Source: Cepaea nemoralis
Taxonomy: Eukaryota; Mollusca; Gastropoda; Stylommatophora; Helicidae
Assembly: GCA_014155875.1 (NCBI GenBank)
Contig: JACEFZ010017895.1
Coordinates: forward strand, 62,001 to 126,000
Length of the DNA: 64,000 bases
Reading direction: 5' to 3'
Below are positions 51,635 through 52,644 of this stretch, piece after piece (the stretch's first letter is position 1; every line of letters starts with the position of its first letter). Below the pieces are notes generated by a model that saw only the letters and a program-made list of their open reading frames with translations, had not been told where the DNA came from and ran no database searches. The translations under genes were made by a program, and so were the position numbers.

Positions 51635-51829
51635 GTCCATCACGAATGATGAGGACCATTCATTCATTGCATCTTTTGATTTGATGAAGAACGAATGACT
51701 TGCGCTTTAGTTTGGATTATAGCGAGGTAGTGGTCGCGCAACTCCATCGACCTCGCTCTCTCGTCTGCGTCCATCTGGTTCCAGTGGCGAGCATGGCAAG
51801 ACGACTGGAGACGGACACAGATGCAGTGG

Positions 51830-51860
51830 ACGTTAGGCTGCCACGGCCAGTTATCCCTGT
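51830..51860 (-). rRNA. 28S rRNA-derived fragment
   Basis: The minus strand reads ACAGGGATAACTGGC exactly, followed by CGTGGCAGCCTAACG, closely matching the universally conserved eukaryotic large-subunit segment near the peptidyl-transferase/sarcin region (one deletion, few substitutions). A fragment only, not a functional gene. Confidence 0.8.
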
Positions 51861-51892
51861 ATATATTGGCTCTCGAGAGCCTCGTGCCAACG

Positions 51893-51923
51893 GCCCTTCC
51901 GTCAATTCCTTTAATTTTCAGTT
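51893..51923 (-). rRNA. 18S rRNA-derived fragment (internal, about nt 1130 of 18S)
   Basis: The minus strand reads CTGAAAATTAAAGGAATTGA then CGGAAGGGC. This is the conserved small-subunit segment used as a universal primer site, with one or two changes. Eukaryotic type (TTAAAGG...GGAAGGGC). Confidence 0.85.
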
Positions 51924-51953
51924 TTAAGACAAGCGTAGCGACAAGCGAATGAG

Positions 51954-51984
51954 CGTATGACTACTGATAGGATCAACCAGATAT
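51954..51984 (-). rRNA. 18S rRNA-derived fragment (5' end), copy 1
   Basis: The minus strand reads ATATCTGGTTGATCCTATCA then GTAGTCATACG, the first bases of 18S rRNA with about four substitutions. It is followed by CGCTTGTCTTAAA-like bases (51925-51938) that echo the next 18S positions. Confidence 0.85.
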
Positions 51985-52120
51985 CCATCGGATAGACGGA
52001 CTGTCCGCCAGAACAGACCACACACACATGCGATTAGCGAGATTCTACCACAGAAGATATTGCTCGTCTAAGTTGCGAACAAATCTGCCGATTTACGGCC
52101 GAGCCTCAGCAGTTCGCAAT

Positions 52121-52140
52121 GCATATGACTGCTGGCAGGA
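52121..52140 (-). rRNA. 18S rRNA-derived fragment (5' end), copy 2
   Basis: The minus strand reads TCCTGCCAGCAGTCATATGC, one mismatch to 18S positions about 10-30. It lies about 155 bases upstream of copy 1 in the same orientation. Confidence 0.75.
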
Positions 52141-52307
52141 CAGACTATACACGCACACGCAAGCCAAGAGTAGCATCGCTAAAGCGCGCCCTCCCGGTAC
52201 AAGGTGATACATGCAAAACCACTGGACGCCTACCGACGAGCTTTCAAGCTACGCCGGCAGGACTGACCGAAAAGCTATACCAGTTTACTGACTGCAGGCC
52301 CACTACT

Positions 52308-52411
52308 CATCGAGAGAGAGAGAGAGAGAGAGAGAGAGAGAGAGAGAGAGAGAGAGAGAGAGAGAGAGAGAGAGAGAGAGAGAGAGAGAGAGAGAGAGAG
52401 AGAGAGAGAGA
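52308..52411. repeat. (GA)n microsatellite
   Basis: About 52 GA repeats inside the rRNA-mosaic insertion. The Arg/Glu and Ser/Leu ORFs are artefacts. Confidence 0.97.
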
Positions 52412-52644
52412 GTGGGTGCTTATCGAGACTTTGTCGAACGGTGGTACAAATTTGCTCTTTTGCCCGCTCAAACCACGACCCTGGCTGCACGATGCGGTTA
52501 CATTCTCGAAACGCCTGCCTCGCTAACTTGCGTTGGCTGGGAAGATCCCATTTTGGTGCACCTCACACAGCCATCCGAGATAACGAACGCTAGACGCGGA
52601 ACTGATCTTGCGAACCAGACCACCCCTCATAAACAATGCAATAT

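Follow-up and report, generated by a model that had tools for sequence, protein, structure and literature searches.

How did a segment of about 1 kb that combines short pieces of 18S and 28S rRNA come to lie inside a LINE of Cepaea nemoralis? The question is addressed here with the whole 64,000-nt stretch of DNA (the window). The first-pass annotation had described the segment as a target-duplicating insertion mixing 18S and 28S pieces, and this description is supported by a 14-bp target-site duplication (TSD) and by the rRNA matches. The insertion site comprises the following features.

49339..53673, plus strand: host LINE, broken, split by the 1004-nt insert and by an insert at 51054-51401
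51613..51626: left copy of the TSD, AAACAATGCAATAT, identical to the right copy at 14/14 positions
51627..52630, minus strand: insert, 1004 nt
52631..52644: right copy of the TSD, AAACAATGCAATAT, identical to the left copy
31595..31791, plus strand: LINE relative without the insert, 83% over 162 nt on the left side and 86% over 37 nt on the right

The perfect direct repeats reported on both sides of the segment were thus confirmed, while only one of its proposed limits holds: the right end is indeed 52630, but the insert begins at 51627, 8 nt further left than the 51635 given before. LINE coding does pick up again past the insert, as had been claimed, since the joined flanks read GTNNAI(YIYIYI)LRTLTERSIEKLRD, a reverse-transcriptase-like reading (GTNNAI...LRTLTERSIE). 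The comparison with an unoccupied site gave a divided answer: the LINE relative at 31595-31791 carries no insert, but the duplicated word is absent there as a single copy, being lost or replaced by (AT)n. The insertion at 51627-52630 is genuine.

No terminal inverted repeat of at least 12 nt was found in the insert, a threshold below which shorter or poor ones could escape detection; the sole inverted repeat of at least 12 nt listed is an (AT)n palindrome outside it. The insert has no long terminal repeat and no polyA or A-tail, its 3' tail has no second occurrence within the window, and no further copy of the insert is present within the 64 kb. The target context, judged by eye, is nearer to an L1-type cut in the opposite orientation (TAC/AAAC, plus strand) and fits cleanly in neither orientation. 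The other insert in the host LINE (51054-51401) is flanked by AGTGGATATTTAC at 51041-51053 and 51402-51414; words of GGTGTCACCC are repeated near both of its ends (by eye), and it has no other copy in the window.

The rRNA pieces were compared with ten eukaryotic rDNA records (L001-L010), not with the host's own rDNA. L001 and L002 are rDNA in a plasmid collection, and L003-L010 are eight MAG contigs picked by an exact 28S pattern. All are eukaryotic rDNA misfiled as bacterial plasmids (NZ_CP082873.1 and NZ_CP050525.1, respectively L001 and L002) or as bacterial MAGs (L003-L010), which represents contamination. Minus-strand coordinates (m) equal 52631 minus the window coordinate. Read along the minus strand, the pieces and the sequences associated with them form two units, A and B.

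52121..52140, minus strand: unit A, 18S rRNA nt 12-31, 19/20 identical to L010
52079..52118, minus strand: unit A, last ~40 nt of 28S, stopping at the LSU 3' terminus; weak alone
51984..51989, minus strand: GATGGA, like the last nucleotides of the 5' ETS (GATAG.) in L010 and L001; weak
51925..51983, minus strand: unit B, 18S nt 1-32 (to 51952) and, by eye, nt ~30-45; 26/28 identical to L001
51893..51921, minus strand: unit B, 18S core at nt ~1127-1156, 28/29 identical to L002
51868..51881: palindrome GGCTCTCGAGAGCC, inside the 32 nt that link the 18S middle piece to the 28S core
51827..51860, minus strand: unit B, 28S core piece ACAGGGATAACTGGC..., 31/35 identical to L007

All four pieces named by the first-pass annotation were recovered, three of them with slightly shifted limits: the 18S 5' end of unit A stands at 52140-52121, that of unit B (given as 51984-51954) starts at 51983, the 18S middle segment (given as 51923-51893) lies at 51921-51893, and the 28S segment (given as 51860-51830) extends from 51860 to 51827. 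To this content a fifth, weaker piece has to be added, the 28S 3' end, which yields two units colinear with pre-rRNA instead of one series. The sense orientation that had been proposed holds for every piece, but the SSU-before-LSU order is incomplete, with the 28S 3'-terminal piece placed between the two 18S 5' ends. In unit B, cmscan places 18S model position 1 at 51983 with an E-value of only 1.1, and a small local duplication of GCTTGTC (by eye) precedes nt ~30-45. The 28S core matches all eight loci L003-L010 at 82-89%, these loci having been selected by a pattern in that region. The 28S 3'-end piece was found with L007 and L010, at the LSU terminus in both, and was accepted because the two references agree on the gene end; it is the weakest of the five. 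The pieces are 20-45 nt each, and ~170 of the 1004 nt of the insert are identified.

The significance of these short matches was assessed with profiles and with blastn. On the insert the 18S profile scored 14.6 and 6.0 bits, that of the whole 28S 4.9 bits and that of the 28S 3' part 10.2 bits, while each of 300 dinucleotide shuffles of the insert stayed below 3 bits with all three profiles; 18S B, the 18S middle piece and the 28S core thus withstood the shuffled controls by which they were to be judged. Tiled over the window (1-63754), the profiles matched one other place, at 57.9 kb, with 3.9 bits. With the whole window as the blastn query, eight rows of at least 41 bits were obtained, seven from 18S B and the 18S middle piece and one at 57.9 kb; at 41 bits none of 100 shuffled windows (best 39.4) and nothing in the reversed window gave a match. 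This whole-window query listed neither the 28S core nor piece A nor the 28S end; they came up only with the insert alone as the query, the E-values then being 2e-4 to 0.05 for the 28S core and 0.05 to 0.44 for piece A (0.004 against L001 and L002 alone). The 28S 3'-end piece had E-values of 0.15 and 0.44, and a z of 3.6-3.7 against 30 shuffles. When the stretch of the 28S core was submitted directly to cmscan, no LSU family was listed. Taken individually, 18S B, the 18S middle piece and the 28S core are strong, and piece A and the 28S end are weak; chance resemblance is ruled out for the former three by the shuffles and the rest of the window, and stands for each of the latter two considered alone.

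Unit A consists of an 18S 5' end followed by a 28S 3' end, and unit B of an 18S 5' end, the 18S middle and the 28S core. All five pieces are sense and each unit follows pre-rRNA order, least surely for the 28S end in unit A. By an arithmetic estimate, sense orientation and pre-rRNA order would arise together by chance at ~1/200 (1/16 for strand x 1/2 x 1/6), with the division into two units chosen post hoc. In unit B, 18S nt ~45 seemingly abuts nt ~1127 with zero spare bases, and 32 nt separate 18S nt ~1156 from the 28S core; the two units are ~90 nt apart. A collinear fragment or pseudogene of rDNA is rejected for the rRNA gene parts on the basis of this adjacency and this 32-nt gap. Unit B begins at 18S nt 1 or ~6 nt upstream, and the 28S end piece finishes at the 28S terminus. 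The six bases ahead of unit B, GATGGA, resemble the end of the ETS in two references, and the source may therefore be the precursor rather than mature rRNA, although this sign is weak. The stretches that precede the two units are alike to a degree equalled by 67 of 500 shuffles, which is non-significant.

Outside the rRNA pieces, the insert contains four other parts.

52413..52630, minus strand: 5' part without a family match; a box-B-like word, GGTTCG, by eye only
52312..52412: perfect (GA)50 / (TC)50 array
51989..52144, minus strand: predicted long imperfect hairpin enclosing unit A, fold z -4.5 (plus strand -3.8), in a segment picked post hoc
51627..51826, minus strand: 3' part, predicted series of hairpins, z -3.7 (plus strand -0.9)

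The inverted repeat around unit A, considered as sequence alone, is weak, being equalled by 32 of 1000 shuffles, and the segment 640-830 of the insert, with most of unit B, is predicted to be unstructured (z +0.6). Of 11 overlapping tiles of 200 nt, nine fold with a lower z on the minus strand, three show a strand difference above the 95% level of the controls (2.06), and only the tiles at 51627 (-3.6) and 51977 (-2.8; plus strand -2.7) pass the 5% level of the controls (-2.6). For these controls 111 of 160 drawn tiles were kept, the others having been removed as low-complexity or close to the insert. Overall, the predicted RNA structure provides no more than modest support.

Searches for known families within the insert revealed no tRNA (ARAGORN, bacterial code) and no tRNA, snRNA, snoRNA, ribozyme or other Rfam family at gathering score; matches to mir-76, sR4, snoZ178, PyrR206 and ceN30 were far under the gathering scores and were treated as noise. 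That the 3' part holds the end of a LINE ORF (a frame ending ...MQ*, with a 61-aa open stretch) was considered and dropped, as no relative was found: one search gave no candidate and another gave three, none with E <= 0.1. Exact or gapped patterns of the insert gave 0 matches in viral contigs and 0 in genome contigs, and blastn of the insert returned two plasmid records, both eukaryotic rRNA, and two phage matches at E 4, treated as noise.

The base composition of the insert (GC 0.51, CpG o/e 0.98, or 1.08 without the GA array) differs from that of the host LINE pieces (0.34 and 0.50). CpG o/e is 0.57 over the window as a whole; the host LINE has 0.50 and its relative 0.48, six TE coding pieces range over 0.44-0.64, and higher values occur in the small nested insert (0.70) and a mariner piece (0.82). 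Youth can hardly be read from high CpG, since the window has other 1-kb stretches with a CpG o/e of ~1, at 17.7-18.1, 48.1-48.5, 51.1-51.4 and 55.9 kb. The stretch 11501-13500 is GC-rich (0.52) yet has a CpG o/e of just 0.06. The four better rRNA pieces differ from their best references in 8 of 112 core columns and in 16 of 131 columns of longer alignments (28S end excluded), and the differing columns are among the sites most conserved across eukaryotes. By an arithmetic estimate, two copies of the TSD would by chance still be identical in 13% of cases if decay had reached 7%, and in 3% of cases if it had reached 12%. The combination of identical TSDs, high CpG and diverged rRNA pieces is possibly that of a young copy of an older, previously mobile lineage, the CpG value itself depending on methylation history.

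The reading that we prefer, tentatively and at something close to an even chance, is that the insert arose from pre-rRNA, copied into DNA with most of the interior skipped and retroposed into an older LINE. A LINE reverse transcriptase would prime at the nicked target, run 3' to 5' along the rRNA while skipping structured stretches, and jump from the 5' end of one rRNA molecule to the 3' end of another. The ends of pieces at 18S nt 1 and at the 28S terminus fit the expectation from such end-to-end jumping. Less surely, the chimera would later have become a non-autonomous element, of which the present insert may be a young copy. Counting against a retroposed mosaic of pre-rRNA are the lack of polyA and of a known LINE 3' tail, the small size of the pieces (mostly below the 50-482 nt of human 28S/LINE-1 chimeras), the small identified share of the insert, the lack of a second copy in the window and a target context nearer to an L1-type cut in the opposite orientation. 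The earlier proposal of mobilisation by a LINE remains the likeliest route in view of the 14-bp TSD and with no terminal inverted repeat of at least 12 nt found, but it finds no A-tail, partner tail or clean target fit. A more specific form of this history, rather doubtful in our estimate, is a mobile retroelement family whose body is a structured, miniature, twice-repeated pre-rRNA, perhaps mimicking rRNA toward ribosome- or nucleolus-associated LINE particles. Retained in it, in the order of transcription, would be the universal 18S 5' end, the 18S core, the peptidyl-transferase segment of 28S and the 28S 3' end. Alu is thought to reach LINE particles via its SRP-RNA fold. If such a family exists, precursors of the large rRNAs can seed a retroelement, and it would allow a direct test of reverse transcriptase skipping on structured RNA.

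The main competitor, possible but clearly less probable than retroposed pre-rRNA, is a one-off chimera in which small rRNA fragments and other RNAs were joined once at this site and have decayed since. It agrees with the lack of another copy in the window, with the shortness of the pieces, with the CpG-rich stretches elsewhere in the window and with two pieces lying at, or close to, natural ends of rRNA; PMC6337102 reports rRNA-derived fragments from both ends, 5' and 3', of 5.8S and 28S. It accords poorly with TSD copies that are identical though the rRNA pieces are 7-12% diverged, and with a predicted long hairpin that spans several pieces, but as sequence alone that inverted repeat is equalled by 32 of 1000 shuffles. 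Even a one-off event would be an unusually complex rRNA chimera, with its junctions as a record of jumps. A segment of host rDNA spacer or pseudogene moved as one collinear piece is unlikely. The two units headed by 18S 5' ends resemble a tandem mini-rDNA, a possible ETS remnant precedes unit B, and the TC array and high GC of the insert are possible traits of rDNA spacer; a 14-bp duplication, however, is not expected from a piece of spacer alone, and the units are just ~90 nt apart.

Capture of gene fragments by a DNA transposon of the pack or Helitron type would account for several short fragments within one element, and is nevertheless very improbable, since no terminal inverted repeat of at least 12 nt was found; a 14-bp TSD is unusual among pack-type elements, and Helitrons are not known to make one. 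That the rRNA resemblance as a whole is fortuitous is hardly credible. In its favour, the matches are short, two of them (piece A and the 28S end) are weak alone, and the whole-window query lists neither these two nor the 28S core; against this, the shuffled inserts yielded no counterpart of 18S B, the 18S middle piece or the 28S core even at 3 bits, 18S B and the 18S middle piece exceed all 100 shuffled windows, and the 18S 5' end recurs in piece A at 19/20 positions.

Mobile elements with 5S or 28S 3'-end parts have already been described, and the insert appears to resemble both LINE-made RNA chimeras and rRNA-derived SINEs; it would be placed in neither, with no LINE part recognised. In human LINE-1 chimeric insertions, 28S fragments are described as mostly sense and ascribed to RNA ligation or template switching (PMC13174262). 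As is proposed for the insert, these carry sense 28S fragments brought by target-primed reverse transcription, but the cases described join one 28S segment of 50-482 nt to LINE-1, whereas the insert has 18S and 28S pieces of 20-45 nt and no LINE part; the main text of that paper contains '18s' 0 times. In the insert, rRNA pieces do lie inside one TSD pair, and no LINE 3' part was recognised. SINE28 (Longo et al., as quoted in PMC6337102) is a short mobile element derived from the 28S 3' end, which ~40 nt of the insert resemble, weakly when taken alone; the insert adds 18S pieces and a 28S core, is 1 kb long and in its bulk is other sequence. Template jumps of R2 onto other RNAs in vivo are reported in PMC3414825, where R2 and R2/R1 SIDEs are described as internally deleted, non-autonomous, rRNA-linked retroelements, the hybrid SIDEs having 14-bp TSDs. 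The SIDEs described there lie in 28S genes and have an R2 ribozyme and an R1 or R2 3' end, none of which was found in the insert; an R2 or R2/R1 SIDE was rejected, as the insert sits in a LINE and no ribozyme family was listed. The tailless retropseudogenes of PMC5322556, which include 5'-truncated copies of 18S (two) and of 28S (ten), share with the insert a TSD and the lack of an A-tail, but are presented as single truncated RNAs tied to L1 activity, in contrast to a mosaic. Cassandra, Helenus and Ajax, in the account of PMC10886601, are also mobile elements with rRNA-like or small-RNA-like sequence, but carry 5S rRNA in LTRs, and the insert has no long terminal repeat. Classification as a Pack-type DNA transposon was rejected, no terminal inverted repeat of at least 12 nt being listed for the insert. 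In open-licence PubMed Central, no mobile element joining two 18S and two 28S regions in pre-rRNA order was found.

The match at 57.9 kb belongs to another GC-rich insert of ~1 kb (~57627-58667; GC 0.51, CpG o/e 0.75), which breaks a 21-bp tandem array. Its 28S piece (57904-57949) matches at 81% in 47 columns, with E 0.002 in the whole-window search, and at its end the insert has an A9 run and GAAGAAGAAG, in the same direction as this 28S piece. A short TSD, ATACYAGTCAC with one mismatch, is possible (by eye; the surrounding array is itself repetitive), and two tandem copies of 79 nt, 84% identical, are present at 58081-58238. This insert and that at 51627-52630 share no significant sequence (best E 0.14). 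Two rRNA-bearing inserts in 64 kb suggest, from a one-window sample, that the phenomenon is perhaps not unique in the genome, and if the family reading is true, the insert at 57627-58667 would join a wider rRNA-bearing class.

Among the other features of the window, a four-copy repeat is present at 53742-53958, 58697-58900, 16089-15954 and 62616-62751, the copy at 58697 matching the others over 136-217 nt at 81-86%. A Gypsy-like element (39691-44805) contains an 816-aa ORF (42355-44805), whose relatives carry integrase and reverse-transcriptase domains. The named relatives of this ORF, among the best 120 of 1117 matches, are largely from molluscs and echinoderms, the best of them being snails, Biomphalaria glabrata (56% over 97%) and Candidula unifasciata (59% over 66%); matches other than the named ones reach up to 62%.
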